The notes beneath the pieces were generated by a model. It did not search any database and was not told the DNA's origin. It saw only the letters and a list, made by a program, of their open reading frames with translations. The translations under genes and the position numbers were made by a program. From NCBI RefSeq assembly GCF_000687995.1, contig NZ_JIAC01000001.1, positions 558,001-622,000 of the forward strand: 64,000 nt of DNA, written 5' to 3'. Positions 8,803 through 63,452 of the stretch are shown here, one piece after another (the first letter of the stretch is position 1; each line of letters starts with the position of its first letter). Origin of the DNA: Selenomonas ruminantium AC2024. Its GTDB lineage: Bacteria; Bacillota; Negativicutes; Selenomonadales; Selenomonadaceae.

Positions 8803-8879
8803 GGAGGTCACTCCTTACGGTTGTTTTTGCTTTTCTACATTATACCATTGGAAAAAAGATAAATGGAGGGAAGTTGCCT

Positions 8880-8908
8880 TTGGCTGGGTAAATATTGTAA
8901 AATATAAG
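8880..8908 (+). promoter_or_regulatory. Promoter of the SpoIIE-type phosphatase gene
   Basis: TTGGCT at 8880-8885 and TATAAG at 8903-8908 with a 17-base spacer, about 40 bases before the start codon. Confidence 0.4.
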
Positions 8909-8949
8909 GAAACTAAGAAATTTTTAATGAAAGAGGGCGGCTGGAATAC

Positions 8950-35414: not shown

Positions 35415-35471
35415 AGAGTTGAGGCTGTCGCTTTCGGGTGGCAGCCTTTTGTAATAAGGAAGGTGACTCAT

Positions 35472-36917
35472 ATGGAAAAATTCAATAAGCAGGAAATAGA
35501 TGAAAAGTTAAAAGCTGGTTTCCCGATGGAACACCGCTGGCATAACCGTTTCCATTTGGAAATGCCCTTTGGTCTGATTAACGACCCAAATGGACTGGCT
35601 TTTTGCGATGGCAAGTTCCATGTCTTTTATCAGTGGAACCCGCTGGGCTGTGAGCATAAGAACAAGTGCTGGGCGCATACGGCAACCAGGGATTTCATAC
35701 ATTACAGCACACCGGAACTGGCCCTGTGGCCGGATGATGTCCACGATAAGGATGGCTGTTACTCCGGCTGCGGCACCGTGGAAGACGGACAGCTGCGGGT
35801 GCTTTATACCTGCAACCGCAAGGAAGATGGCGTGCGGATTCCTGCGCAGCGTTTTGGCAGCTTGAAGGGCGGTCAGATTAAGAAGGAAGACATTATTGTG
35901 CCGGACCATCCGGAGGGCATTACCGGCCATTTCCGTGACCCCTATCTCTTTACGCGGCGGGGCAAGCGGTACTTTGTGATTGGTGCTCAACGGGAAGCGG
36001 ACGAAACAGGTACGGTGCTGGTTTACGAAGAAACTGCGGAGGGTTGGAAGAATCTGGGTGAGGTACAGACCCGCTTAGGGGAGTTCGGCTATATGTGGGA
36101 ATGTCCCAACCTCGTGCAGTTTGGCAGTTATGATGTGCTGATTTTCTGTCCGCAGGGATTGGATGAACGAGCCTTTGACCGGCAGAACCTCTATCAGGCC
36201 GGTTATATCGCAGGGCATTTATCTCTGGACAGCATGGATATGATGCAGCACACCAAGTTCCAGGAATTGGACAAGGGGTTTGACTTTTACGCACCGCAGG
36301 TGCTGACGCATGAAGGGCGCCAGATTCTGATTGGCTGGATGGGGATGCCTGACAAGGATAACGAATATCCCACGGCGGAAATGGGCTGGCAGTACAGCCT
36401 GACCATGCCGCGTGAGCTGCGTCTGCGTCAGGGCCATATTTACTCCCGTCCGGCGCGGGAAATGAAGGATTTGCGCATTGCGGAGACGGCAGTGGAACTG
36501 GAAGTTGAGAATACGACAGCAATCAGCCGCACGCTCTTTGACGGTTCGGAAATTCTTCTGGATATGGAACTGGGCGAAAGCAAGGAAATCGTCATCACCA
36601 TTGCCTTTGGTGCGGAGAAACTGCGCTTTATCTATGACCTCAAGGCGCAGGTTATGTCCATTGACCGCAATGAAATGCGCAATGGCGGCCGGGGTGTGCG
36701 CCGCTTCCGCCTGTTTGCCGATGAAAACCTCTCGCTGCAGATTTTCGTGGACAAAACCGCGGTGGAAGCCTTCTTCCAGCATGGCGAAGAAGCCGCCAGC
36801 CTCCTGGTGTTCCCGGAGAAAAACATTCAGCCGGAACTCACCGTGGAATCCAATGGCATACTTAAGTCCCTAAGCGGAAAAATCTGGCAGCTGGACGGTT
36901 TCAAATTCAACTGTTGA
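35472..36917 (+). CDS. scrB: Sucrose-6-phosphate hydrolase (GH32)
   Basis: The 481-residue enzyme shows GH32 catalytic motifs: nucleophile Asp in NDPNG (residue 38), RDP near 155-157 and acid/base Glu in ECPN (residue 210), then a C-terminal beta-sandwich. It splits sucrose 6-phosphate into glucose 6-phosphate and fructose. No signal peptide is seen, as expected for a PTS partner. The ATG at 35472 follows AAGGAAGGTG. Only 57 bases separate it from the permease; a strong terminator follows. Confidence 0.9.
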   Translation: MEKFNKQEIDEKLKAGFPMEHRWHNRFHLEMPFGLINDPNGLAFCDGKFHVFYQWNPLGCEHKNKCWAHTATRDFIHYSTPELALWPDDVHDKDGCYSGCGTVEDGQLRVLYTCNRKEDGVRIPAQRFGSLKGGQIKKEDIIVPDHPEGITGHFRDPYLFTRRGKRYFVIGAQREADETGTVLVYEETAEGWKNLGEVQTRLGEFGYMWECPNLVQFGSYDVLIFCPQGLDERAFDRQNLYQAGYIAGHLSLDSMDMMQHTKFQELDKGFDFYAPQVLTHEGRQILIGWMGMPDKDNEYPTAEMGWQYSLTMPRELRLRQGHIYSRPAREMKDLRIAETAVELEVENTTAISRTLFDGSEILLDMELGESKEIVITIAFGAEKLRFIYDLKAQVMSIDRNEMRNGGRGVRRFRLFADENLSLQIFVDKTAVEAFFQHGEEAASLLVFPEKNIQPELTVESNGILKSLSGKIWQLDGFKFNC

Positions 36918-50438: not shown

Positions 50439-51629
50439 ATGGATAATTTTACATTGGTCATTCCCTTGGAAGGAAAAATAGATTCGGTCAATGCCGCTGA
50501 AGTGGGGCGTAATATTGCCAAAAAACGGGCGGCACAGGAGCATCAGGTGGTAATCTTTGATGCGAAGAACCTGATGTTTATTTCGTCGGCAGGACTGCGG
50601 GTTATCATGCAGGTGGTCAAGGAGGAAAAAGTTCAAAAACATGAGCCGGTTTCCATGATAGAGGTTTCCAAGGAAGTGTACAATATCCTGGAAATGACGG
50701 GCTTTACGGAGTTTATGGAGGTACAGAAGGCTTATCGGGAAATTAGTCTGGAAGGCAGCGAGCTTATTGCGGAGGGCTTTTTTGGCAAGGTTTACCGGCT
50801 GGACGAGGAGACGATTGTCAAGGTATATGGGGAGGGCGAAGCCAGCATTCCCCTGATTAAGAGGGAGCATTCACGGGCCAAACAGGCCTTTGTCAAAGGG
50901 ATTCCCACGGCGATAGCCTATGATATTGTGCGGGTAGGCAATCAGTACGGTTCGGTGTTTGAGTTGCTGCAGGCCAGAAGTTTCAATGATTGGGCGCAGG
51001 AATATGAAGCGGATAGAGCGCAGCTCGATGAGCTCATGCAGCTCTATGTGGACTGTTTGAAGCAGGTTCATGCTACGGAAATGGAACGCGGCGTGCTGCC
51101 TATGGCCAGAGACAATATGCTGGAATCTTTGTCTGCGTTACAGGACTATCTGCCAGCGGAAATTCTTGAACGACTGCGGAAATTGTTGGCAGCCCTGCCG
51201 GATGATAACCATGTGGTTCATGGTGATTTTCAGATGAAAAATGTGCTGCTCTGCGATGGGGATCCCATGCTGATTGATATGGAAACCATGTGTACAGGTC
51301 AGCCCATCTTTGACTTGCAGGGGCTTTATGTGGCTTATAAATCCTTTACCGAGGACGAGCCGGATAATTCGATGGCCTTTTTGGGCCTCCGTATGGAAAC
51401 TGCAGATTACATCTGGCAGCGGATTATGGAGCTTTACTTTGGCACGCAGAACAAGGCGGTGCTCAGTGCCTTGGAGGACAAAATAAAAGTTGTGGCCAGC
51501 GTCCGGTTTTTAAGTCTGTTGACGACAACCGCGCTGAAAGAACATCCCCTTACGGAACTGCGCGTGAAGCATACCCGGGAGCATTTGCAGGAATTGTTGC
51601 TGCGGGTGGATTCCTTGAAGTTAAGGTGA
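50439..51629 (+). CDS. STAS domain fused to aminoglycoside-phosphotransferase-like kinase
   Basis: The 396-residue protein opens with an anti-sigma-factor-antagonist STAS domain (residues 1-105) with the phosphorylatable Ser in MFISSAGLRVI (Ser 50 expected). The rest is an APH/choline-kinase-like fold: GFFGKVYRL nucleotide loop, VKVYGEG Lys, HGDFQMKNVL (catalytic Asp 263) and LIDMET (metal Asp near 280). Such fusions resemble the TIGR02172-type family known from Fibrobacter. The SpoIIE phosphatase at 8950 could act on Ser 50; this is inference. A GTG-started RsiV-like gene follows after 14 bases, so they form an operon. Confidence 0.8.
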   Translation: MDNFTLVIPLEGKIDSVNAAEVGRNIAKKRAAQEHQVVIFDAKNLMFISSAGLRVIMQVVKEEKVQKHEPVSMIEVSKEVYNILEMTGFTEFMEVQKAYREISLEGSELIAEGFFGKVYRLDEETIVKVYGEGEASIPLIKREHSRAKQAFVKGIPTAIAYDIVRVGNQYGSVFELLQARSFNDWAQEYEADRAQLDELMQLYVDCLKQVHATEMERGVLPMARDNMLESLSALQDYLPAEILERLRKLLAALPDDNHVVHGDFQMKNVLLCDGDPMLIDMETMCTGQPIFDLQGLYVAYKSFTEDEPDNSMAFLGLRMETADYIWQRIMELYFGTQNKAVLSALEDKIKVVASVRFLSLLTTTALKEHPLTELRVKHTREHLQELLLRVDSLKLR

Positions 51630-51643
51630 ATGGAGGGAGATTG

Positions 51644-52864
51644 GTGAAGAAAACATTTCGTCTCAGCTTGCTGCTGGCCTTGTTGGTGGGGCTGCTGTCC
51701 CTGTCTGTTGTGGCCAGCGCCGCGCCTCGTGCTTTGGGTGGCTTTTCCAAGCAGATGCATCAAAAGTGCGAGACTGGCCGTGATGTCCGCGGGGAGCATG
51801 AACTGTTGCTTTCCAAGTGGGCAGGGCTGGCGGTGAATGCGGAAATTCGCCGCGATTATCCGCTTTTGGCAAAAGCCATTGAAAAAATCAACCAACGGGA
51901 ATGGCGGCGAATTCAGCAGGTGCAGGAGAAGCTGAAAGGTGAGGCCATCGCGTTCCGGCAAAATGATTTGAAGTACTATCATCCGCTGTCGTATGAATTT
52001 GATGTACAGATGCGGCGGGCGGATACCGTAGCGGTTAGTTTTTTGCAGCAGGAATACACGGGCAGCAGCGGTGTGCACGGCATGTATGCCTGGGAGGGTG
52101 TGAATCTCGACCCGCTGACCGGTGCGAATATTCCTTTGTCAGCGGTGGTGAAGGATAGGGAAGCCTTGGTCAAGACTATCTGCAAGCAGCTGCGGCAGGA
52201 TTATCCCCATAGCAGTTTTGACGGCTTGGAGGCCAAACTGCAAAAAGAAGCCTCAAGCGATACGCTCAACTGGACATTAGACCCGCGGGGGATTACCTTC
52301 TACTTCAATCCCTATGAGATTGCTTCCTATGCCGAAGGTCTGTTGATGGCTACGATTCTGTTCCGGGAACAGCCGGAGCTTTTCAACATAGCTTATCAGC
52401 AGACAGCGGCGGCCTATGCCCAGCCCTTTTCGGCTTATTATCCACTGACGACATCCCTAAAGGACAATGGCAAGCGGGATGTCATTGAAGTAGTGCAAAT
52501 GGATGGGGCAGTGCGTGTACGGCTTAATGGACAGGATACGGTAATAGCTGCTAATTTGACGGATTTGGAGCCCGTGCTAATCCATATGGAAGATGGACGG
52601 AACTATCTCTATATTGACGGCAACGGCAAGGACAGCGTGCGTCAGACACTGGTGGTGCAGCTGGGCGCAAAATCGGCCCGCTATATCAGCACTCTGCCTT
52701 ATTCCTTCCGCCATACCATCGCCGTAGCACCGGCGATGCAGGAGTATTGGAATTTCCTGACGAACCCCAACGGCTTCTATATTGACCGCAAGGGGGCCTT
52801 TACCTCGACTACGAAGACCGATATCTGTGCGGTTGGGGAAAAAGGAGAATTGACCTTCGGGTAA
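51644..52864 (+). CDS. Exported RsiV/DUF3298-like protein
   Basis: The 406-residue product has a signal peptide (cleavage near ASA-APRA) and a periplasmic part with YEFDVQMRRADTVAVSF, YTGSSGVHGMY, LDPLTGANIPLSAVV and PRGITFYFNPYEIASYAEG. These are the marks of DUF4163/DUF3298, the extracytoplasmic domain of RsiV and related proteins that bind cell-wall or lysozyme-like ligands. No transmembrane anti-sigma part is present. GTG at 51644 follows GGAGGG by 7 bases. Its pairing with the STAS-kinase is unusual and may link envelope state to partner switching. Confidence 0.75.
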   Translation: MKKTFRLSLLLALLVGLLSLSVVASAAPRALGGFSKQMHQKCETGRDVRGEHELLLSKWAGLAVNAEIRRDYPLLAKAIEKINQREWRRIQQVQEKLKGEAIAFRQNDLKYYHPLSYEFDVQMRRADTVAVSFLQQEYTGSSGVHGMYAWEGVNLDPLTGANIPLSAVVKDREALVKTICKQLRQDYPHSSFDGLEAKLQKEASSDTLNWTLDPRGITFYFNPYEIASYAEGLLMATILFREQPELFNIAYQQTAAAYAQPFSAYYPLTTSLKDNGKRDVIEVVQMDGAVRVRLNGQDTVIAANLTDLEPVLIHMEDGRNYLYIDGNGKDSVRQTLVVQLGAKSARYISTLPYSFRHTIAVAPAMQEYWNFLTNPNGFYIDRKGAFTSTTKTDICAVGEKGELTFG

Positions 52865-52869
52865 GATAA

Positions 52870-52917
52870 AAAAGTCCGATAAAATCAACATTGCGATGCT
52901 GATTTTATCGGACTTTT
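52870..52917. terminator. Bidirectional terminator between convergent operons
   Basis: AAAAGTCCGATAAAATCA and its exact complement (ending about 52917) around a 12-base loop. Confidence 0.9.
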
Positions 52918-52923
52918 GCTTTT

Positions 52924-55434
52924 TCAGCTTATGCCAAAACGCGATTGTGCTTCGTCTGCCAGTTTAGCATAGAGTTCCATGGCTTCGCCATGATGCTCCT
53001 TGATGTACTGCAGGTTATCCGCCTTTTCTTCCTCCGGCCCGTCACAGTAGGCGTGGCCTGCCATTTCCAATGCTTTGGCGGCTTCGGAGAGTTGGATGCC
53101 GCCGATGGAAAGAGCCGTGGATTTGAGGGCGTGGACGTGGGTGGTATAGTCGGCAATGTTGTCGGCGCTCAGGTCTTTTTCCAGCAGTTTTGTGACAGCT
53201 TTGCGGCGGGTGACGAACATGCTCAGGAATTTTTTCTGCATCTCCTCGTCGTTGCCGCAGTACTGCATGGCGGTGGGCAGGTCAATTTGCTGGTCAGCGG
53301 GGGTGGGGGAGGCAGTTTCGCCTGCTGCCTCGATTTTTTCGGGGGGCAGGTATTTTTGTACCATGTGCTCCAAGGTTTTGCCATCCACGGGTTTTGCTAG
53401 GTAGTCGTTAAAGCCTTTGGCGAGGAACATTTCCTTTACTCCTGCCACGGCATTGGCGGTCAGGGCGATAAAGGGCGTATGTTGGCAGGGAAAGTCGGTC
53501 ATGGTTTTAGCGCGCTGCAGGGTTTCGATGCCGTCCATTTCCGGCATCATATGGTCCAGGAACACGATGTCGTAGTGGTTTTGGGCAATCAGCTGCAGAC
53601 ATTCCTTGCCGGAAGTGGCTGTATGGATATGGACGCGGGTTTTCTCCAGCAGGCTTTCTACGACGGTGAGGTTCATGTCGTTGTCGTCAACCACCAGAAT
53701 ATGGGCCTGCGGGGCGGTGAAGCTTTCCTGATAGTTTTCTTCTTCCCGCAGGGCCGCTTCAATGCGGGTGTTGAAATCCCCGATGGGGTCATATTTTTCG
53801 ACTTGCTGAGGAATGCGAATGGTGAAGGTGCTGCCTTCGCCGTAAATGCTGTCCACGCTGATACTGCCCTGCATCATTTCCGTCAGTTTCACGGTGATGG
53901 CCAGCCCCAGTCCGGTGCCTTCGATATTGCGGTTTTTCTCGATGTCCAGCCGCTGGAATTTGGCGAAGAGTTTTTCCTTGTCCTCCTCGCGGATGCCAAT
54001 GCCCGTGTCCTGCGTGATGAATTCCAGTTCCAGCGTATCGTTTTCTGCCGTCCCCTGTGATTTGACGGTAAAGGTCACGGAGCCTTTGTGGGTGTATTTG
54101 ACGGCGTTGTTGAGGATATTCACGACCACCTGCCGCAGGCGCACTTCGTCGCCAATCAGGGCGTCGGGGATGTCCGGGTCAACGTTCATATGGAACGCCA
54201 GCCCCTTTTGCCCGGCTTTGTAGTGCACCATGTTGTAGACGTCGTTGAGTACAGAGCTAAGACTGTAGCTTACCGGCACAATCTCCATCTTGCCGGATTC
54301 GATTTTTGAAAAGTCCAAAATGTCGTTGATGATGGAGAGCAGAGTTTCTCCGGCACTTTTGACATTGAAGGCGTATTTTTTGAGCTTGCCGCTGGCCTCC
54401 CGCATAATCATCTCGTTCATGCCCAAGATGGCGTTGAGGGGCGTGCGGATTTCGTGGCTCATGTTGGCGAGAAAATCGCTCTTGGCCTGATTGGCCCGCA
54501 GGGCTTCGTCCCGGGCTTCCCGCAGGGCAGTGCTTTCCTCGGCGGCCACCTGATTGGTGAAGGCGTAGAGGATAAAGACGCAGAACAGCACGACCAAAAG
54601 GCCGAATACCCAGAGCACAATCAGATGGATATTGGTGATGCCGGTAACGACCGAGCGCCATTCCCGATAACCGATGGCGATGAAATTCGTATCAGGAATC
54701 GGAGAGGCGTAGAGTACATAATCTGCGTTGATTTTCGGGTCAAAGATGGCGGCTTCCTGGGCACTGTCCAATTTGGCCAGCAGTTGGTCAAGTCCCAGGG
54801 GGATGTCCTTGTCTGCATCGTAGAAGGGGCTGTCCGTGTAGTTTTCAAAGGGCACTACCACCTGCTGGGTGCGGGTATCGTAGAGCAGGATGTTTTCATC
54901 GTCCTTTTTGTCCGCAAACTGGAAGGGGGAGGATTTATCCCGGAGGGATGAGTTTGTGTGGAGTTTGCAGAGTACATAGCGGACGGTGTTTCCCTGATAG
55001 ACCGGCACCATGACCACCAGCCCTACATCTTTGTAGTAGCGCCAGCTGGGTTCCCCCTGCAGAGTGCGGGCACATTGCAGTCTGGCCTCGGCAGGCAGGG
55101 CTACGCCCCAGATACTCTGCCCGTGGATGTCCAACAGACCGCCCAGCTGTCCCTTGTCACTGATGGACTGGACGCCGTTGGCCGGGGTGATTTTTTCGGC
55201 GGCAATCAGGGTGGCGGTTTTGCTCAGCTCGGCGATTTCCGTCTGCAGCAGATTATGGTAGACGAAGGCGAGCAGTTCCCCCTGATGGGTGCTGAATTTC
55301 TCCACTTCCCGGTTCAGGGAGTCGTTCATCTTGCTCTGCAGGGCAAAGCCTATCAGTAGCAGGATGGCGAAGAAAATCATAAAACGTCCCAGCAGGTGCA
55401 GGGTGAATGTGAGTATGCGTTTATCTTGTTTCAA
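52924..55434 (-). CDS. Hybrid sensor kinase with receiver and HPt domains
   Basis: The 836-residue protein has helices at about 10-32 and 268-292 around an extracytoplasmic Cache-like domain, HisKA with the autophosphorylated His 327 (SHEIRTPLN), HATPase (N-box LNNAVKYTH, DTGIG, GTGLGL), a receiver with Asp 627 (VFLDHMMPEMDG) and an HPt with His 768 (HVHALKSTA). It can relay phosphate His-Asp-His, the last step likely to the stand-alone receiver at 57880. It is the last gene of the five-gene minus-strand operon and overlaps its predecessor by 14 bases. Confidence 0.88.
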   Translation of the reverse strand: MKQDKRILTFTLHLLGRFMIFFAILLLIGFALQSKMNDSLNREVEKFSTHQGELLAFVYHNLLQTEIAELSKTATLIAAEKITPANGVQSISDKGQLGGLLDIHGQSIWGVALPAEARLQCARTLQGEPSWRYYKDVGLVVMVPVYQGNTVRYVLCKLHTNSSLRDKSSPFQFADKKDDENILLYDTRTQQVVVPFENYTDSPFYDADKDIPLGLDQLLAKLDSAQEAAIFDPKINADYVLYASPIPDTNFIAIGYREWRSVVTGITNIHLIVLWVFGLLVVLFCVFILYAFTNQVAAEESTALREARDEALRANQAKSDFLANMSHEIRTPLNAILGMNEMIMREASGKLKKYAFNVKSAGETLLSIINDILDFSKIESGKMEIVPVSYSLSSVLNDVYNMVHYKAGQKGLAFHMNVDPDIPDALIGDEVRLRQVVVNILNNAVKYTHKGSVTFTVKSQGTAENDTLELEFITQDTGIGIREEDKEKLFAKFQRLDIEKNRNIEGTGLGLAITVKLTEMMQGSISVDSIYGEGSTFTIRIPQQVEKYDPIGDFNTRIEAALREEENYQESFTAPQAHILVVDDNDMNLTVVESLLEKTRVHIHTATSGKECLQLIAQNHYDIVFLDHMMPEMDGIETLQRAKTMTDFPCQHTPFIALTANAVAGVKEMFLAKGFNDYLAKPVDGKTLEHMVQKYLPPEKIEAAGETASPTPADQQIDLPTAMQYCGNDEEMQKKFLSMFVTRRKAVTKLLEKDLSADNIADYTTHVHALKSTALSIGGIQLSEAAKALEMAGHAYCDGPEEEKADNLQYIKEHHGEAMELYAKLADEAQSRFGIS

Positions 55435-56536
55435 TGATTTCCACTCCCTTCACCAGCCAGTCCATTTTTTCACGCAGGCTGTTGTTGGCGATGACTTCGC
55501 CCTCCTGACAGCGCACATGGCCGTCCCTGTCCACGATGTTGCCGGAGAATACGGGATAGCCCTGCAAAAGTTCCTGCCGGGCCCGCAGTACCAGCGCTTC
55601 TTCACGGGGGCTGAGATTCGGGGCCAGCCGCAGGGTAATCACATCATCCAGTATGCCCTGCCAGTAGACCTTGTTGGCAGTTTTATGGCCGTTGATGTGG
55701 AGCAGCTTGCCATAGACCTGCTGCCAGTCCGTTTCGATAGAGGCGAGGCAGTGCAGGGGTGTTTTTAGCCCTGCACTGTGGAAGTCGATGTAGTCGAGCC
55801 CCAAGGCGGCAGCTTCCTGCGCCGGATGCTGGGAGGCGGCAAAATAGGTAATCACATCGGCCCCTTCGTGTTTCAGGATATAGAGAGCCTTATTTTCCTT
55901 TTCGGGGGAAATCCACTGTCCCGTCCATTGAACGAGAATCCGGGCCTCCGGGCGCACCTTCAGCACGCCTAAGGCAAAGGCGTTGACATCCTGGCGGGTT
56001 TCCAGCGCAGGGAAGGGGGCCAGATAACCCACAATACCTGTCTGGCTGTGGAGTCCTGCGAGCATTCCCGCCAGATAGCGCACCTCGTAGTAGCGCATGG
56101 AGTAGTTGAACATGCGGTCGGAAATGGTCTCGCCTACGGAGTTGGCGTAGAATTCCACCTGCGGATAGCGGCGGGCAATGGCTTCCAGATTGTGCTGGTA
56201 GCCGGGGTTGGCCAGAAAGATTTTTTTGACCCCTTTGTTGACGAGGTTTTCAGTTACCCGGGCCAGGCTGTTGTCGTCGCTGTTCACATTGTCTTCGATA
56301 TAGAGGTTAAAACTCCGCTCGTTGCAGGCCTTTTGCAGCCCCTGTGCCATTTCTCTTGGCCAGCCCGGTGCATCTTTGGGGCTGGCAAGAATCAGGCCAA
56401 CTGCGTCCCGGCGCTCCCAGATGGCCGAACCAAAGTAGTTGATGGAGAGGAAGATGGCCAGACACAGCAGGAAGGCCTGCAGCAGGGCAAAGGCCACAAA
56501 GCGGCGTTTCAGCATATTATGACTGCTAAGCTTCAT
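55421..56536 (-). CDS. Membrane-anchored BMP/PnrA-type solute-binding protein
   Basis: The 371-residue product has an N-terminal helix (about 13-35) that lacks a proper lipobox and probably stays as an anchor. The rest matches the Bmp family (nucleoside or riboflavin-binding ABC receptors): APGWPREMAQGLQ, KGVKKIFLANPGYQHN, YEVRYLAGMLAG, GIVGYLAPFP, GADVITYFAASQHPAQEAA. No ABC permease or ATPase is nearby, so it more likely serves as a ligand sensor for the hybrid kinase. It overlaps both neighbours by 11-14 bases. Confidence 0.78.
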   Translation of the reverse strand: MKLSSHNMLKRRFVAFALLQAFLLCLAIFLSINYFGSAIWERRDAVGLILASPKDAPGWPREMAQGLQKACNERSFNLYIEDNVNSDDNSLARVTENLVNKGVKKIFLANPGYQHNLEAIARRYPQVEFYANSVGETISDRMFNYSMRYYEVRYLAGMLAGLHSQTGIVGYLAPFPALETRQDVNAFALGVLKVRPEARILVQWTGQWISPEKENKALYILKHEGADVITYFAASQHPAQEAAALGLDYIDFHSAGLKTPLHCLASIETDWQQVYGKLLHINGHKTANKVYWQGILDDVITLRLAPNLSPREEALVLRARQELLQGYPVFSGNIVDRDGHVRCQEGEVIANNSLREKMDWLVKGVEIIETR

Positions 56537-57869
56537 GGGGGTGCGCCTCCTCCCGCCGGTCTTCTTCCTGCGTCAGCAGGTTGAAAATGATGACAAAGGG
56601 GGTGTAGACCACGATATCAAGGCTCAGCCATACGAGCTGCAGCACGGCCCCCATCACATCACCGGTGGCCAGCCAGCCCTGCAGCAGCACGGGGGCGGTG
56701 GATTCCACCGTATAGCGGAACAGGGGGACAATGCCCCAGTGAATGGCCAGCCAGCCCACCAATACATTGAGCATGGGCGCCAATAGATATGGCACGAGGA
56801 ACATGGGATTGAGGACGATGGGCAGGGCAAAGAGGAAGGGCTCGTTGATGGAGAGCAGCATGAGGGGAAAACAGTAGGCTGACAGCCGCCGCAGTTTTCT
56901 GCGGGAGGCAAAGACCCAGACGGAAATCGCCAGCCCTAAGAGGGAGATGGAGGTGGCGTCAAAGAATTCAGCGGTAAAGATGAATTTGCCGCCAGTAAGC
57001 TCGTTGGCCGTTTGGGCCGGTACATAGAAGGCTTCGCTCCAGAAACAGGTGAGGCTGTTGCCGTTGAGGCCTAGCCACCAGAGCAGGCGGCGGATGAGTT
57101 CGTAGCCGATGGCCAGAGCGGGGCTTTGGGCGATGTTTTCATGGATAGCATTGGCCAGCAGGGTGGGCAGGGACAGCAGGGCGCTTTCGATGGATATCCA
57201 GCCAAAAGCAGTGAACAAAGAGGCCAGCAGAGTGAAGCTCAGAGGCAGCAGAAGTTTCAGGGATACGGCCATTTCATGGGGCAGTCCGGGTACTACCGAC
57301 AGCTGCCAGAATTTCAGCTGGGAGAGGCGGCTGAACATGAGCGTGCTGAAGGTCGCGATGAGTAGCGCCAGAAAAAAGCCACGCACGGCAAAGTACAGGG
57401 CGAGTTCATGGGAACTGCCCGGAAAGGCGGTGATTAAAAAGAGATAGGCCGATACGGTGCAGATAAGGGCAAGGTATTTATTCCCCTGCCAAAGGTCTGC
57501 CAGTTTTACGGTCAGTACCATGGCAAAGAGCAGGGAGTTCAGGATATTGGTGACTTCTAGATACTCTTTGATTTGGTTCCCCAAGGCAAAGAAGGCGGAT
57601 TCACGGTAGGCCTGGTCATGGAGTCCGCCGGTCAGGATACTGCCCAGCCCCAGCCAGTCTTCGCCCAGCAGGGGGCCGTTGGGATTGCAGAGCAGATAGC
57701 CGGTCATATGGATGAGCGTCAGCAGGATAATGACCGGCATCATCAGGCAGAAGGATTCCCGAATGGCCTTGAGGTATGCAATTTTGCGCAGGCGGCGGCT
57801 CAGGGGGATGATGATACCGTCCAAAAGACCGCCCCGCTGGCTATAATCTTGCTCGTTATGACCGCCCAT
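56526..57869 (-). CDS. PTS EIIC-like membrane protein (lactose/cellobiose class) in a sensory operon
   Basis: The 447-residue protein has about ten membrane helices and the EIIC motif NEPFLFALPIVLNPMFLVP near 340-360. No EIIA or EIIB domain is fused or encoded in the operon. In transport-active members of this class the sugar site includes a His in a W-x-x-GIHG stretch; here the matching stretch reads WWLGLNGNS, with Asn instead. The Glu of NEP is kept. Placed between a receiver and a binding protein, it may be a membrane receptor or scaffold rather than a PTS transporter. Confidence 0.72.
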   Translation of the reverse strand: MGGHNEQDYSQRGGLLDGIIIPLSRRLRKIAYLKAIRESFCLMMPVIILLTLIHMTGYLLCNPNGPLLGEDWLGLGSILTGGLHDQAYRESAFFALGNQIKEYLEVTNILNSLLFAMVLTVKLADLWQGNKYLALICTVSAYLFLITAFPGSSHELALYFAVRGFFLALLIATFSTLMFSRLSQLKFWQLSVVPGLPHEMAVSLKLLLPLSFTLLASLFTAFGWISIESALLSLPTLLANAIHENIAQSPALAIGYELIRRLLWWLGLNGNSLTCFWSEAFYVPAQTANELTGGKFIFTAEFFDATSISLLGLAISVWVFASRRKLRRLSAYCFPLMLLSINEPFLFALPIVLNPMFLVPYLLAPMLNVLVGWLAIHWGIVPLFRYTVESTAPVLLQGWLATGDVMGAVLQLVWLSLDIVVYTPFVIIFNLLTQEEDRREEAHPHEA

Positions 57870-57879
57870 AATTTACTCC

Positions 57880-58320
57880 TTAGAGTCCCAGGTTATCCAA
57901 TGCCTTAAAGATATCGTTGACCTCCGGATTTTTGATGGGCGGGAAAATCTGCTTTTCCACCCGGGTGATGAGGTCGGCGGGGATAAAGGGTTTTTTTACA
58001 TAGTCTGCGATTTTGAGCTGGCTGGCCTTGACGATGGTTTCTCTGTCGGCGGCAGCGGTGAGGAAGATAACCTTCATATCGGCGTAGTCGGGATTTTTCC
58101 GAATGACCGAGAGCGTCTGCAGACCATCCATGCCGGGCATGGCGATGTCGAGCAGGATTAAGTCAATGGCCCCCTGCCGCTTTTGCAGGATGTTCAGGCA
58201 GTCAGAGCCGCTGGTGGTGGTCAGAATTTCGGCCCGCACCTTCATTTCCAAGATGCTTTTGGCCATGGCGATATTCATTTCATCATCATCAACGACTAAA
58301 ATAACGGGTAATTTACTCAT
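57880..58320 (-). CDS. Stand-alone receiver-domain response regulator
   Basis: The 146-residue protein is a CheY-like receiver: acidic pocket DDDE at 11-14, phosphoacceptor Asp 58 (LILLDIAMPGMDG), TAAADRE and KKPF Lys near 110. A tail of about 20 residues follows and no output domain is present. It probably accepts phosphate from the HPt domain encoded three genes later. The ATG at 58320 lies 12 bases after the upstream stop. Confidence 0.85.
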   Translation of the reverse strand: MSKLPVILVVDDDEMNIAMAKSILEMKVRAEILTTTSGSDCLNILQKRQGAIDLILLDIAMPGMDGLQTLSVIRKNPDYADMKVIFLTAAADRETIVKASQLKIADYVKKPFIPADLITRVEKQIFPPIKNPEVNDIFKALDNLGL

Positions 58321-58332
58321 GGTTTTTCCTCC

Positions 58333-60390
58333 TCAGTATTCCAATGGTTTATCCCCAAAACGGGCAGGGGCTCCTTTTTCTCTGGCTTCCTGACAGGCCT
58401 GGGCAGCTATTGCTTCGGCCTGGGAGAGATTTTTGTCGGTCATGGGGCAGCAGCCTGCCTGCCATGCGTAATTCTCCTGCAGGGCGTTCAGGTCCGTAAT
58501 GAATTCGGCAGCAAAGTTCAGCATCTGCCTGTTGTTTTGGGCGGTACAGAGGCAGATAAGCTCGCCGCTGACTGTCCCGGCCACAACGGAGCGCACCCAT
58601 TCCTTAGCCGCTAAGAGCCGGGCCGCTTCCTGCAGGGGCGGGGCCAAAAGATGGCGGCTGGCAGAGGCGTCTTGGGGCGTTATGGCAAAGAGTGCCAGAT
58701 AACAGGCGGGGGGTGCAGGGCCTGTGGGGATTTTTGTCATCAATTCTTCAAGGTGCTGCTCCAGATAGAGCATATTGGGGAGCTGACTGAAATTATCCCT
58801 GCAGGCCAGCTGCTCCATGGCCGCCAGCTGCTGACGGTGGTTGCGGGAACGGTAGTAGATAATACCCATGATGATGCCCATGATGAGGAAAATCAGCAGG
58901 GCAGCCTGTTGGGGATAATGGTACAGGAGATACTGGGGGCTGAAGTGCCGGATGTGTTCATGGGTTCCCTGATTCAGGGTCGTAGTCAGCAGTCCGGGCG
59001 GCAGATGATTGATTTCCTTGTTGAGAATCTGCCAAAGCCGGCGGTCGGCATTCTGGGCAACACCGAGGCTGATGGTGCTGGCAAAGACCTGCTCCGTATC
59101 GGCCGACAGATTGTAGGCCGAGGACGATTCCAACAGGGAGGGAACAGTAGCCCGGGGAATGTAGGTGATATCTGCCAGACCGTTGCTGACGCCCTGACAG
59201 CATTCCTCTAAACTCTTGCAGTAGAGAATCTGCTCCTCGGGATAGCTGGCCTTGACGAAGGTGACGGTTTCAAACAGTCCGTCCACGGCGGCAACTTTGG
59301 GCGATTCCGGCAGAACGGCGCCGTGCTTGGTGATGGGCACAAAGCCGATATCGAGATAAGGCTGGGTCGGGATAAGGCCCAGCTCATCCAGCCAGCTGAA
59401 ATCGCAGGGCACATCCGCGACCATATCCACCGTGCCTCGCAATAACAGGCGGTGGATTTCTGTCAGGGATTTTTCCTCTACCAGTTTAATCTGAATGCCC
59501 AAATCCGCTGCCAGCTGGTCAAGCAGGGCTTTCGTGGCCCCCGTCCATGTTCCGTCAGCATCCTGATAGAAGTAGGGCTTGCTGTTCATCAGTACGGCAA
59601 CTTTGAGGACTTTCTTATCCTGCAGGTAAGCCTGTTCCGCAGGGGACAGCACGAGGGGGAAGCCCTTGGAGCGCTCGTATTTATCGTTGAGCCGGTTGCG
59701 GATATTGGGCTGGTTTAGGAGCATATTGTCCTGAGCGGCATTGACCCGGGCAAAGAGTTCGCTTCTGTCCTGGCGAACCAGCAGGCGGTAACTCACCCGG
59801 TCAAAGAGTGCCAGTACCCGTTCGGCTTTCCCGGGGTGCAGCAGGGGCTGGACATAGCCGTCAATGGCGTGGCTGGTAAAGGCATTTTTCATGGCCGCAG
59901 GCTCATGGAAGGTTATCAGCTCGTAGCTGAAGCCATGTTCTTTGGCTATGCGGGCAAGGTTGGGGGTGGGATAATTGTAATCCAGTGTTCCCAGTCGCAG
60001 ATGGCCGCCGGTGAAATCTTCCTGCACCACCAATTCCATGGGGAAGCGGGCGATAACATGGTCGGTGCGCCGGGCAAAGGGCAGGCTCTTGTAGTCGCCG
60101 GGCATGGCGGGCAGCAGGTCAATCTCACCGCTGTTTAACTTGGCGCCTGCCTCCCACCAGTTTACGCAGGGGATATAGGTGAACTTTGCCCCCAGAAAGC
60201 CGGAAAGAAATTCCATATATTCATAGCCGTTGCCCCGCAGATGCCCCGGGCGGTCTTCCTCGACAAAGCCCGTCCCCGGCACATAGCCTACCTTCAGTTC
60301 CTCAATGGCCGAGGCGCGGGCGGGCAGCAGTATGGTGCAAAGGATGAGCAGCAGGGCGCACAGCCGCCTGGCCCATGAATAAATCCTCAT
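58333..60390 (-). CDS. Sensor protein with two periplasmic solute-binding domains and a degenerate GGDEF-like tail
   Basis: The 685-residue protein has a signal peptide (about 1-29), two tandem SBP_bac_3 domains (about 30-250 and 265-490), one transmembrane helix near 500-520 and a C-terminal domain of about 160 residues. The tail begins like GGDEF proteins (ACRDNFSQLPN) but reads VSGELICL where GGDEF should be, so it should not make c-di-GMP. BvgS/ArcB-like kinases use tandem SBP domains for amino-acid or acid sensing, but no kinase is fused here. GGAGGCGAGG precedes the ATG at 60390, the first gene of the operon. Confidence 0.72.
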   Translation of the reverse strand: MRIYSWARRLCALLLILCTILLPARASAIEELKVGYVPGTGFVEEDRPGHLRGNGYEYMEFLSGFLGAKFTYIPCVNWWEAGAKLNSGEIDLLPAMPGDYKSLPFARRTDHVIARFPMELVVQEDFTGGHLRLGTLDYNYPTPNLARIAKEHGFSYELITFHEPAAMKNAFTSHAIDGYVQPLLHPGKAERVLALFDRVSYRLLVRQDRSELFARVNAAQDNMLLNQPNIRNRLNDKYERSKGFPLVLSPAEQAYLQDKKVLKVAVLMNSKPYFYQDADGTWTGATKALLDQLAADLGIQIKLVEEKSLTEIHRLLLRGTVDMVADVPCDFSWLDELGLIPTQPYLDIGFVPITKHGAVLPESPKVAAVDGLFETVTFVKASYPEEQILYCKSLEECCQGVSNGLADITYIPRATVPSLLESSSAYNLSADTEQVFASTISLGVAQNADRRLWQILNKEINHLPPGLLTTTLNQGTHEHIRHFSPQYLLYHYPQQAALLIFLIMGIIMGIIYYRSRNHRQQLAAMEQLACRDNFSQLPNMLYLEQHLEELMTKIPTGPAPPACYLALFAITPQDASASRHLLAPPLQEAARLLAAKEWVRSVVAGTVSGELICLCTAQNNRQMLNFAAEFITDLNALQENYAWQAGCCPMTDKNLSQAEAIAAQACQEAREKGAPARFGDKPLEY

Positions 60391-60410
60391 GTCCTCGCCT
60401 CCATAATATA

Positions 60411-60444
60411 TGTGTCGCAATTATTCAACAATAAAAGCGACACA
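60411..60444 (-). promoter_or_regulatory. Inverted repeat in the leader of the sensory operon
   Basis: TGTGTCGC (60411-60418) and GCGACACA (60437-60444) are exact 8-bp arms, about 20 bases before the first start codon. Operator or RNA hairpin. Confidence 0.45.
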
Positions 60445-60504
60445 AAGCAAACAATATAATAAAGTTACTTTCGCCTTTGACATGTCATAATCCTGCCATA
60501 GGCA

Positions 60505-60553
60505 GCAAAAAAGGAGGGGCGACAAAGTGTGGATACATTTTGTCGCCCCTCCT
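60505..60553 (-). terminator. Terminator of the EIIA-Gut gene
   Basis: AGGAGGGGCGACAAA (60512-60526) pairs with TTTGTCGCCCCTCCT (60539-60553), followed on the minus strand by TTTTTT. Confidence 0.88.
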
Positions 60554-60567
60554 GTATGGGCAGTTTC

Positions 60568-60930
60568 TTATTTCTTGGTAAAGGTAATATGTGCGCCGAC
60601 AGTCAGCACGGGCAGGGACGGACCCTTGACGATAATCTGGCCGGGCATGGAGCCTTCAGCGTTGAACACCAGCGTGCAATGACCTTCTTCGCGGAGGTTG
60701 TCATTAACGGCGTCACCGACTTTTTCGATGGTGAACTTGATGCCGCCCATCAAGAGTTTGTCGCCCTTCTTGATGTCTTCTTCCAGTTTGCCGGGGGTGT
60801 GTTCCAGCACCATATCCGAAAGGTTCGGGCGGATGCCTTCATCTAACAGGATTGCGCTGTTGTTATTGGTGAGAAAGGTCTTGGCCAGGTTGCCGATGGC
60901 CGTGATTGCTACGTCGTACTTAATGTCCAT
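60568..60930 (-). CDS. Orphan PTS glucitol/sorbitol-type EIIA
   Basis: The 120-residue protein matches EIIA-Gut (SrlB): VGDAVNDNLREEGHCTLVF is close to the E. coli segment, and a phosphoacceptor-like His sits in VLEHTPGKL near 43-47. It should pass phosphate within the PTS, but no EIIB-Gut or EIIC-Gut lies in the window. It stands alone with its own terminator, between two sensory operons, and may be regulatory. The ATG at 60930 has AGGAGG 10 bases upstream; the ATG at 60939 is directly on that site. Confidence 0.78.
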   Translation of the reverse strand: MDIKYDVAITAIGNLAKTFLTNNNSAILLDEGIRPNLSDMVLEHTPGKLEEDIKKGDKLLMGGIKFTIEKVGDAVNDNLREEGHCTLVFNAEGSMPGQIIVKGPSLPVLTVGAHITFTKK

Positions 60931-61152
60931 GCTGTTCATTCCTCCTACAGATACACATTGCCTTTAACTTGCTATACATTCCATATTCATTATGAGTGTT
61001 AATCTTTATTATATCATATTTCCGCGCGAATGTGCGGGGACATTTGTCTTATTGTTGATTTTTTTTTCGGAGACTGGGAATAATATGGCAAAAACTAAGT
61101 ATTGGCGGTATAATTTGACTTAGATTGACTGAGAAAGGCGGAGTTTGCAGGT

Positions 61153-62118
61153 ATGGAACGGGGCGAGCGGTTCTTTTGGAGCGTGATGGGGGCCTTGCTG
61201 ATGTTTTTGACAGGGCTTATCATGTGGCAGGTAATGCAGACGGATTTTTCTTTGCGGCAGACGGAACATCGGCGTAAGTTTGGGGCGGTCTATATGACCC
61301 TTAACAATCCCTTCTATGAAATCGTGGATGAGGAAATCCGCATGGAAGTGGAGCGGCGGGGAGATGTGCTTATTTCCCGGGACCCTGCGCTGTCGGTGGA
61401 ACGGCAGGAAGAAGCGGTGCGGGATCTTATCAACAGTGGGGTGGATGTCATCTTCATCAACCCTGTGGACTGGCAGCGCATTGCGCCAGCGCTGCAGCTG
61501 GCCAAAGAGGCTAATGTGCTGGTGATTGCCGTGGATACCAACGTGGAAGATGAGAATTATGTAGCCGCTACGGTGGTGTCGGATAATTATCTGGCAGGCC
61601 AGCAATGTGCCGAGCATTTGCTGGAACATGCCAGCGGGGGCAATATTGCCCTGCTGAAACATTCGGAAGCCCGTTCTTCTGTGGACAGAATTCAGGGCTT
61701 TTTGGACAGGCTGGCAGGCAATCCCAATTTCAAGGTGGTGGCGCAGGCGGAGTGCCGGGGACAGCTGGAGCTGGCCATGCCTGCCATGCAGGAAATGCTG
61801 AAACGCCATCCGGAAATCGATGTGGTGATGGCGTTGAATGACCCCGCGGCTATGGGCGCCATGGCCGCCCTGCAAAACGTGGGCCGTCTGGACAAGGTGA
61901 TGGTCTATGGCGTGGACGGTGTGCCGGAAACCAAGGAAATGATTTATCAAGGCCATATGATGGCGACGGCTGGGCAGTCGCCGCGCGCTTTGGGTCGTCA
62001 TGCGGCGGAACAGGCCTACAAGCTGTTGGCAGGAGAAAAGGTGCCTAAGCTCATGCGCCTGCCCACAATGCTGCTTACCCGGGATAATCTGGGAACCGAA
62101 ATGAGAGGATGGGATTAA
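61153..62118 (+). CDS. Membrane-anchored RbsB-type sugar-binding protein
   Basis: The 321-residue product has an N-terminal transmembrane anchor (about 8-29) and a ribose-type periplasmic binding fold: AVYMTLNNPFYEIVDEEI, SGVDVIFINPVDWQ, VIAVDTNVED, DRIQGFLDRL, VYGVDGVPETKEMI. No ABC permease is adjacent; the ATG of a NarL-type kinase overlaps its stop (TAATG). It is therefore probably the input module of that kinase, similar in principle to YesM- or LytS-type systems with sugar-binding partners. TATAAT at 61109-61114 gives a possible promoter. Confidence 0.82.
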   Translation: MERGERFFWSVMGALLMFLTGLIMWQVMQTDFSLRQTEHRRKFGAVYMTLNNPFYEIVDEEIRMEVERRGDVLISRDPALSVERQEEAVRDLINSGVDVIFINPVDWQRIAPALQLAKEANVLVIAVDTNVEDENYVAATVVSDNYLAGQQCAEHLLEHASGGNIALLKHSEARSSVDRIQGFLDRLAGNPNFKVVAQAECRGQLELAMPAMQEMLKRHPEIDVVMALNDPAAMGAMAALQNVGRLDKVMVYGVDGVPETKEMIYQGHMMATAGQSPRALGRHAAEQAYKLLAGEKVPKLMRLPTMLLTRDNLGTEMRGWD

Positions 62119-63452
62119 TGGCCGGGGAATATACATGGGAGGAACGGCGGCTCGAATGGCTCTATGGTTTGCTGGGACTTTACAATGGGCTGGTTGTTTT
62201 ACTGATGGCCGGGTTTATGAGCCTGACGCAGGAAAAAATTGTGAACAGTATGACGGCCCATGCATTTTTGACCACGCTGCCCATTGTGCCATTGCCGGCC
62301 TCGAAAGGTTTTTTGCTGTCGGTGGGCGCCTATGCCCTGCTGATTCTGCTGGGCAAGCTCTACCGTCACGGCGGCATGACTTCAGGCCAGCTCCATTTGA
62401 TTTTTGCAGCGGAAATCGGCATCTGCATGCTCTTGATGAAAAGCCTGAATTTGGCTTATGACGGCATTGTGTTGTTGGCGGTGGCTGACCTGATGCACCG
62501 CTACCATGGGGAGAATCAGAGCTGGCTGCTCCTGGGCGCAATGCTTGGAATTTACTTCATGGCCAACTACAATATGGCCATCTTTCAACGCCATGTGGCA
62601 CCTTTTGATGTGTACACGGCCTATTACCGGCCGGAGGTGCAGTCGGTACTGCTGGCCATAAAGAATGGCTTTCAGTCGTTCAATATCGTACTGTTTGTGC
62701 TCTATTTGGTGCTCTTGGTACAGAGCAAGCACCACGAGAAGGAGCGCATTGCCAGTCTCAATAAGCAGCTGGAGGAAGCCAATGTGCAGCTGCGGGCGTA
62801 TGCCTTGGAGGCGGAGCGCACGGCTGAGACACGCGAGCGCAACCGTCTGGCCCGGGAGATTCATGATACGCTGGGCCACACCCTGACGGGCATTGTGGCC
62901 GGGCTGGATGCCTGCATTGTGTTGGTGGATGCGGTGCCGACCGCCGCCAAGAAGCAGTTGGAAAAGATTCGGGAGACGGCCCGCCATGGCATTGTGGACG
63001 TCCGCCGCTCCGTGAAGAAATTACGCCCGGATGATTTGGAAAAAATGCCGCTGCAGCAGGCGGTGAAGAAAGTTATCGCCGAGTTCTCGGCCTCATCCGG
63101 TGTGGAAATCCATCTGGTGGAGCTGGGCTGGCCGGAGAAGCTGCGGGAAGATGAGGAAGAAGTTATCTACCGCATTGTGCAGGAGGGCATAACCAATGCC
63201 CGCCGCCATGGCATGGCAACGAAGGTTACAGTCACCTGCGGTACGGAACCGGGGCGGTTCTATATCATGATTGCCGACAATGGTAAAGGCTGCGACAAGC
63301 CGCAGCATGGCTTTGGCCTGCGCCATATGGAGGAACGGCTGGAACTTCTGCATGGGCGGCTGCGGTATTGGAGTGACAAGGGCTTTACTTTGGAAGCCAC
63401 CATACCCATGGGGAAGAATGTAATGGATAATAATGGGGAGGCAGATGTTTGA
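62118..63452 (+). CDS. NarL-type sensor histidine kinase
   Basis: The 444-residue protein has about six hydrophobic segments (20-205), a short coiled coil, HisKA_3 with His 249 (LAREIHDTLGHTLTG) and HATPase (VIYRIVQEGITNARRHG, IADNGKG, GFGLRHMEERL). It should phosphorylate the regulator encoded next. The membrane part lacks an obvious ligand domain, which fits input from the binding protein upstream. Start and stop overlap both neighbours (TAATG, TGATG). Confidence 0.9.
   Translation: MAGEYTWEERRLEWLYGLLGLYNGLVVLLMAGFMSLTQEKIVNSMTAHAFLTTLPIVPLPASKGFLLSVGAYALLILLGKLYRHGGMTSGQLHLIFAAEIGICMLLMKSLNLAYDGIVLLAVADLMHRYHGENQSWLLLGAMLGIYFMANYNMAIFQRHVAPFDVYTAYYRPEVQSVLLAIKNGFQSFNIVLFVLYLVLLVQSKHHEKERIASLNKQLEEANVQLRAYALEAERTAETRERNRLAREIHDTLGHTLTGIVAGLDACIVLVDAVPTAAKKQLEKIRETARHGIVDVRRSVKKLRPDDLEKMPLQQAVKKVIAEFSASSGVEIHLVELGWPEKLREDEEEVIYRIVQEGITNARRHGMATKVTVTCGTEPGRFYIMIADNGKGCDKPQHGFGLRHMEERLELLHGRLRYWSDKGFTLEATIPMGKNVMDNNGEADV

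Follow-up and report, generated by a model that had tools for sequence, protein, structure and literature searches.

A five-gene operon of Selenomonas ruminantium that may encode a multi-receptor membrane phosphorelay with an EIIC-like protein altered at its sugar site

The window analyzed in this work is a stretch of 64,000 nucleotides from Selenomonas ruminantium AC2024 (contig NZ_JIAC01000001.1, positions 558,001 to 622,000), whose genome is one 2.83 Mb contig. We have studied a compact operon of five minus-strand open reading frames (ORFs), A to E, that fill positions 60390-52924 of the window (Table 1). Gaps of 12 bases between genes A and B and of 10 bases between B and C are followed by overlaps of 11 bases for C/D and 14 bases for D/E. 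A previous reading of this DNA, made from the sequence only, had proposed a tight operon of five genes that overlap or are separated by 10-12 bases, and the ORF coordinates bear this out. The same reading recognized a lone receiver (B), an anchored BMP-type binding protein (D), and a hybrid kinase carrying receiver (REC) and HPt domains (E), assignments that were confirmed with Pfam, the HPt match being weak. Neither an ABC permease nor an ABC ATPase was found among the operon genes in the ORF list or with Pfam, and the Pfam analysis did not reveal any DNA-binding response regulator in the operon, since B consists of a receiver domain only. The coordinates of gene A are counted from an ATG, a longer TTG start being listed at 60420. 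There is only weak evidence for the promoter-like site upstream of gene A, because four such sites were found in the scanned region vs. a mean of 1.4 in shuffled sequences.

Table 1. Location of the operon genes, the two sugar-site codons of gene C, and the flanking signals (window positions; SBP, solute-binding protein; TM, transmembrane segment; aa, amino acids)
Feature	Position	Strand	Description
Gene A	58333..60390	-	685 aa; TM, two SBP_bac_3-type domains (EvgS/BvgS-like), TM, degenerate GGDEF-like domain; EAL of relatives absent
Gene B	57880..58320	-	146 aa; stand-alone receiver domain
Gene C	56526..57869	-	447 aa; lactose/cellobiose-family EIIC-like membrane protein
C residue N269 codon (ChbC His250 position)	57063..57065	-	Alignment to PDB 3qnq
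C residue E343 codon (ChbC Glu334 position)	56841..56843	-	Kept in the window; altered in several relatives
Gene D	55421..56536	-	371 aa; BMP/PnrA-family binding protein, one N-terminal TM anchor
Gene E	52924..55434	-	836 aa; hybrid histidine kinase: periplasmic dCache-type sensor, HisKA, HATPase, REC, weak HPt
Terminator-like 20-pair stem directly 3' of gene E	52870..52917	-	
Weak promoter-like site 5' of gene A	60456..60483	-	9/12 consensus positions

The gene set is not a chance arrangement, because the ratio of nonsynonymous to synonymous substitution rates (dN/dS) was 0.37 or lower wherever it could be computed for the operon genes and because the same genes are found together in many genomes. 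In an initial search, 40 of 60 relatives had some EIIC match. Among the 30 loci mapped, the complete A-B-C-D-E order was present in eight same-genus loci and in L050 of genome G023 (L041 and L043-L050; L and G numbers are our handles for loci and genomes). Locus L042 has A-B-C-D and loses E at the contig end, L064 is also cut by its contig, and L057 (with E cut) and L058 carry B-C-D-E without A. When the search was extended to 380 genomes of the class, 81 of them gave a C match at an E value of 1e-60 or better, and we have fetched 40 loci from this search. C adjoins D in 32 of these loci, and E is near in 29 of the 32 and B in 23. In another four (L119, L121, L122, and L130), a C protein of the type encoded in the cluster (cluster-type C) is present but D is not nearby; their genomes each have a D-E pair on another contig. 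The last four are relatives from outside the cluster or fragments. A D protein scoring at least 421 bits was encoded in 47 of the 380 genomes, and all 47 also encode a cluster-type C. Adding G250 and G256, which have a weaker D, G252, which has a short D, and G160 and G007, where the contigs end, cluster-type C is present in 52 genomes of 12 genera. The matches at E 1e-60 from other families (G059, G138, and G139) are all of the His-bearing, non-cluster type. The sequence-only reading had made its case depend on the conservation of the gene set, and this is what we have observed: the C-D-E genes, often together with A and B, recur in 12 genera of the family to which the window belongs.

Gene C encodes a protein that matches the Pfam family PTS_EIIC (PF02378; PTS, phosphotransferase system) with 56.5 bits, the cut-off being 30.7, and that aligns over nearly its full length with the solved structure of ChbC (PDB 3qnq; E 1.9e-36). 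It has eight hydrophobic segments, and its score against NCBIfam lacE (135 bits) lies below the cut-off of 236. We take His250 and Glu334 of ChbC to be residues of the sugar site. In the alignment to 3qnq, Asn269 of the window protein takes the place of His250, as the sequence-only reading had indicated. The His250 position is altered in 45 of the 47 C proteins encoded next to D, the window included (N in 17, P in 16, F in 11, and D in 1), and the four lone C proteins with no D nearby have P, whereas His was found in all 36 readable EIIC relatives from outside the cluster (20 and 16 in two sets). The rows of L064, L133, and L254 were dropped since they have no readable residue at this position. 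At the Glu334 position, E is present in the window and in most C proteins, and V, L, P, A, or D in some lineages. The gene evolves under purifying selection (dN/dS 0.10-0.29), and the nearest EIIC relatives outside the cluster are about 33% identical.

The genetic context of C differs as well. A direct search did not detect a lactose (Lac)-type enzyme IIA (EIIA) or IIB (EIIB) gene near any of the 51 cluster-type C loci, nor within positions 52001-62200 of the window, whereas among the 36 EIIC loci outside the cluster it located an EIIA gene near 31 and an EIIB gene near 32. These 36 loci overlap with the 36 readable His rows but are not the same set, L254 being only in the former and L134 only in the latter. 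Neither partner was found in three of the outside loci (L065, L067, and L069), where the His is kept, and one outside operon, confirmed with Pfam, encodes EIIA, EIIB, and a family-1 glycosidase. Since the His is lost in nearly all the cluster proteins and kept outside the cluster, and Lac-type EIIA and EIIB are absent nearby, the alteration of C at the sugar site fits a recruitment for sensing. The sequence-only reading had already suggested that the membrane proteins were recruited in this way; both the conservation and the absence of partners fit the idea, but two of the 47 C proteins keep the His, and sensing as such would be an extrapolation from these data. Its statement that the operon has no transport ATPase or PTS partner holds for the ATPase and for Lac-type EIIA and EIIB, but a GutA-type EIIA gene lies upstream, and two lactose/cellobiose-family EIIA genes are found elsewhere in the genome.

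The loss of His was rejected as a strict marker of cluster C, because the residue is kept in L240 and L241. In the phylogenetic tree, a 99/100 branch has the relatives from outside the cluster on one side, and L240 and L241 are joined with weak support (82/71 and 97/66). A single clean origin of cluster C could not be sustained from this tree either: the label "cluster" needs two changes, L240 and L241 are not firmly placed, and the two added outgroups are very long-branched, one of them lying inside the outside-cluster side.

The product of gene A shows a Pfam match to SBP_bac_3 over one stretch. Its AlphaFold2 model (predicted local distance difference test score, pLDDT, 81.3; predicted template modeling score, pTM, 0.53) has as top PDB matches the periplasmic domains of EvgS (9ilw) and BvgS (4q0c), and no GGDEF entry is found in the top 50 PDB matches listed for it. 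The C-terminal alpha/beta domain aligns with the GGDEF region of relatives, and the corresponding region of the L050 protein scores 21.1 bits against Pfam GGDEF, below the cut-off of 23.8. We have aligned 22 A proteins, 13 with an EAL domain and 9 without it, the latter being those of the window and of eight other members of its genus. Scored by the motifs that we take to be catalytic in GGDEF and EAL domains, no intact GGDEF active site was found in any of the 22 proteins, and the EAL motifs are intact in 7 of the 13 EAL-bearing relatives (L050, L107, L113, L114, L118, L127, and L128) and degenerate in the other 6 (L099, L101, L102, L103, L105, and L120). In the genus of the window, the tail still shows constraint (dN/dS 0.20-0.37), although it changes more rapidly than the SBP domains. 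Because the A proteins of relatives end in EAL, the alignment indicates that the window protein is the stump of a GGDEF-EAL protein whose enzymatic part was lost stepwise, the EAL domain having disappeared in the genus of the window. Thus, the earlier description of A as a double SBP protein with a dead GGDEF-like tail stands for the domains and the dead motif, and has been amended in that the tail appears to be the remnant of a GGDEF-EAL module.

Gene B matches Response_reg in Pfam, and its product has the acceptor Asp58 and the other receiver residues. Gene E encodes, in this order, a TM, the sensor, a second TM, HisKA, HATPase, REC, and a weak HPt; the matches to HisKA, HATPase_c, and Response_reg were obtained with Pfam, and that to Hpt (21.8 bits) falls below the cut-off of 24.6, the region carrying an HALKS motif. 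Judged by motifs that we assume to be diagnostic, the signaling residues of B and E look intact. The model of residues 1-330 of E (pLDDT 87.7) matches dCache domains (best E 1.1e-7), which points to a periplasmic sensor domain of the dCache type. In L150, L151, L154, and L181, B-like receivers of 249-274 aa follow E and replace the lone B; those of L150 and L181, both tested with Pfam, contain a second receiver stretch.

The D protein scores 97.8 bits against Pfam Bmp and has a single TM at its N terminus. Its best solved relative by sequence is 6pi5, annotated as "Atrazine periplasmic binding protein" (171 bits), followed by weaker matches to the lipoproteins BmpD (40.5 bits) and tmpC (30.1 bits). 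A scan with the D alignment over one genome per species (84,980 species) detected at least 588 candidates encoding a relative, and the best 80 loci were kept; according to the record titles, they include Selenomonadaceae, Lachnospiraceae, Ruminococcus, Fibrobacter, Succinivibrio, Desulfovibrio, and Clostridium. An E-like kinase directly follows D in 62 of these best 80 loci. A gene for a GGDEF, EAL, or HD-GYP protein, i.e., a protein of cyclic di-GMP (c-di-GMP) turnover, lies within 6 kb of 45 of the 62 D-E pairs vs. 1 of 16 unpaired BMP genes among the best 80 (Fisher p 1.5e-6, which is indicative only because the loci are related and the unpaired BMP genes are mostly from other taxa). The control omits L155 (a misframed pair) and L201 (at a contig end), which were judged by eye and would make it 3 of 18, and the GGDEF, HD-GYP, and EAL profiles, built once Pfam had identified these domains, drew in part on loci that were also counted. 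The neighbors named by Pfam are REC-HD-GYP, REC-GGDEF, and EAL proteins. Cluster-type C stands beside D-E in 11 of the best 80 loci, all titled Selenomonas, Selenomonadaceae, Schwartzia, or, for L141, Veillonellaceae. As an additional observation, many of the loci L155-L193 and L203-L209 are tandem BMP-BMP-hybrid kinase operons of rumen Lachnospiraceae and Fibrobacter, often with REC-HD-GYP or REC-GGDEF genes.

The genome of the window itself contains a sister operon (G000:C1:865323-870002), in which a second D-E pair is overlapped by a REC-HD-GYP gene (7957-9003 of locus L259) whose product has both the HD and the GYP motifs. In addition, the D-E pairs of G001, G007, G012, and G018 come after an ORF of 357-373 aa that includes a receiver, and the B-C-D-E genes of L240, whose C keeps the His, are followed by a REC-HD-GYP gene. 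Altogether, the window genome gives four HD-GYP (HD_5) and five EAL matches. The comparison of gene neighborhoods thus argues that D-E belongs to a BMP/hybrid-kinase module that extends beyond the operon and is associated with c-di-GMP enzymes, a link that comes from the relatives and the sister operon and not from the window operon itself.

Just upstream of the operon, and on the same strand, there is a GutA-type (glucitol) EIIA gene (60939-60568, minus strand) that ends in its own terminator-like hairpin (z -8.15). It was found upstream of all ten same-genus cluster loci, at about 250 bases or less from A in nine and at about 2 kb in L043, and a direct search found it in none of the 41 cluster loci outside the genus; the copies are 93-99% identical where aligned by BLAST. 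This gene is a genus-level neighbor outside the conserved core, although it may have a regulatory role for the operon. As a partner of C it was rejected, with moderate force, since it belongs to another EII family, has its own terminator, and is absent from the 41 loci. A further neighbor is a divergent operon (61153-63452, plus strand) in which a membrane-anchored RbsB-like sugar-binding protein gene overlaps a HisKA_3 kinase gene; the pair adjoins the five-gene operon in several same-genus genomes and in L050. The window also encodes, on the plus strand, an APH-type kinase domain fused to a STAS domain (50439-51629), and a PTS permease fusion that includes EIIC (33573-35414) beside a likely sucrose hydrolase (35463-36917), sucrose being a sequence reading.

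The interpretation that we favor, with moderate confidence, is a multi-receptor membrane phosphorelay of c-di-GMP ancestry that has two catalysis-deficient co-receptors, C and A. Its basis is observed, namely, the gene content, its conservation, the loss of His in C, the decay of A, the sister HD-GYP operon, and the dCache-like model of E; from it we infer a physical complex, its ligands, the absence of transport, the phosphate route, and a c-di-GMP output. In this scheme, E would be the kinase, and D, held in the membrane by one helix, would most likely dock on the periplasmic dCache domain of E and relay to it the binding of a small solute, nucleosides being one candidate by family. C would derive from a lactose/cellobiose EIIC and would have been retained as a co-receptor in the membrane instead of a PTS permease, and A would be a second co-receptor, with a double SBP, that in this lineage has lost its cytoplasmic GGDEF-EAL output through decay. 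The phosphate would pass from His327 of E to its receiver Asp627, then to its HPt His768, and finally to Asp58 of B. The module would descend from a BMP/hybrid-kinase system controlling c-di-GMP turnover, and B probably either signals to c-di-GMP enzymes with genes outside the operon or adjusts the phosphate flow that reaches them.

Several observations weigh against this phosphorelay, and three other explanations have been considered. Among the same-genus relatives, no more than 10 of 21 have the C ortholog; neither A nor B is essential everywhere, because each is missing in some loci; for 17 of the 62 D-E loci, no c-di-GMP domain turned up in the 6 kb around them; and the statistical association is only indicative. 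C might still transport, importing a sugar without phosphorylating it or borrowing EIIA and EIIB encoded elsewhere, so that the operon would sense what C imports. The eight hydrophobic segments, the purifying selection, and the equivalent of Glu334, kept in most C proteins and as E343 in the window, are all compatible with a working permease, and the two D-adjacent proteins of L240 and L241 demonstrate that the loss of His is no requirement for membership in the cluster. Moreover, phosphorylation in trans is possible with the two lactose/cellobiose-family EIIA genes found elsewhere in the genome, and the GutA-type EIIA is a constant upstream neighbor in the genus. We nevertheless consider transport by C rather improbable: GutA is of another EII family and is missing from the cluster loci outside the genus, no Lac-type partner lies near any cluster locus while most outside loci have them, the His has been replaced by four different residue types, the Glu334 position has also changed in several lineages, and the lacE score stays under its cut-off.

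The five proteins might also not constitute one receptor, with A, C, and D-E as sensors or membrane proteins in their own right that share no more than a transcript. In fact, several C-D-E loci have no B, in others A is absent or lies on the opposite strand, and four C genes lie away from D-E. However, the joint inheritance of C with a strong D in every genome that has such a D, together with the overlapping or closely spaced genes of the mapped loci, makes us regard this independence as hardly likely. An output other than c-di-GMP appears unlikely too, albeit easier to defend: B could act on motility like CheY, or the phosphate could reach a DNA-binding regulator encoded elsewhere. Lone receivers with a Spo0F- or CheY-like role are established in other systems, B has no output domain, and the window operon encodes no intact c-di-GMP enzyme. 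Against such an output, the D-E relatives are found repeatedly beside REC-HD-GYP, REC-GGDEF, or EAL genes, L240 places a REC-HD-GYP gene after B-C-D-E, and the relatives of A end in EAL.

More tentatively, and without reaching the confidence given to the phosphorelay itself, we propose that, in one family of gut bacteria, a PTS permease has turned into a non-transporting receptor subunit that, together with the anchored BMP protein and the EvgS-like A with its dead enzyme, would form one large membrane sensor gating a hybrid-kinase phosphorelay of c-di-GMP origin. The cluster offers many natural cases of a His-less protein of a PTS permease family encoded beside a kinase, with close relatives that keep the His, through which the change from permease to receptor could be studied step by step. 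Similarly, the series of A proteins, which runs from an intact EAL through a decayed EAL and no EAL to no gene A, would illustrate how an enzyme-receptor turns into a plain receptor. The results also suggest that a BMP/hybrid-kinase module connected with c-di-GMP is widespread in rumen and gut bacteria.

In agreement with the sequence-only reading, which knew of no described system with this composition, none was found in the open-access literature, where the searches met only related ideas. Sensing systems with a binding protein and a membrane kinase include XylFII-LytS, LuxP-LuxQ, and TorT-TorS. Like these, and like CuaDSR and LevQRST, the operon encodes a binding protein together with a membrane kinase. 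It differs in its BMP-family binding protein, in having a permease-like protein and an EvgS-like co-receptor besides, and in a response side that consists of a lone receiver and not of a DNA-binding regulator. In CuaDSR, the binding protein works through the kinase in sensing (PMC10384115), and in LevQRST, two binding proteins operate with one kinase (PMC3043104).

Transporter-family membrane proteins also stand alongside a histidine kinase in UhpB-UhpC and DctA-DcuS, as they do here; the differences are that the kinase E combines a dCache sensor with a REC-HPt relay and that UhpC and DctA are not known to belong to the PTS EIIC proteins. In those systems, the transporter-family protein serves as a sensor or partner of the kinase (UhpB-UhpC, with UhpC as a sensor, PMC8871633; DctA-DcuS, PMC5703999). 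Closer to the c-di-GMP side, some c-di-GMP enzymes carry EIIC or SBP_bac_3 domains as their input, RmcA being the studied SBP_bac_3 example; the domain is there a part of the enzyme architecture and is described as a phospho-receiver (PMC8846402). Unlike the EIIC described there, that of the window is encoded by a separate gene, has no equivalent of His250, and is linked to an enzyme part that is degenerate or absent. Gene A shares with EvgS and BvgS the tandem periplasmic part of the SBP_bac_3 type, but it has no kinase and its cytoplasmic part is a degenerate GGDEF domain (GGDEF-EAL in relatives). Finally, C is homologous to ChbC over nearly its full length and differs from it in the replaced sugar-site His, in the absence of nearby Lac-type EIIA and EIIB genes, and in its signaling neighbors.

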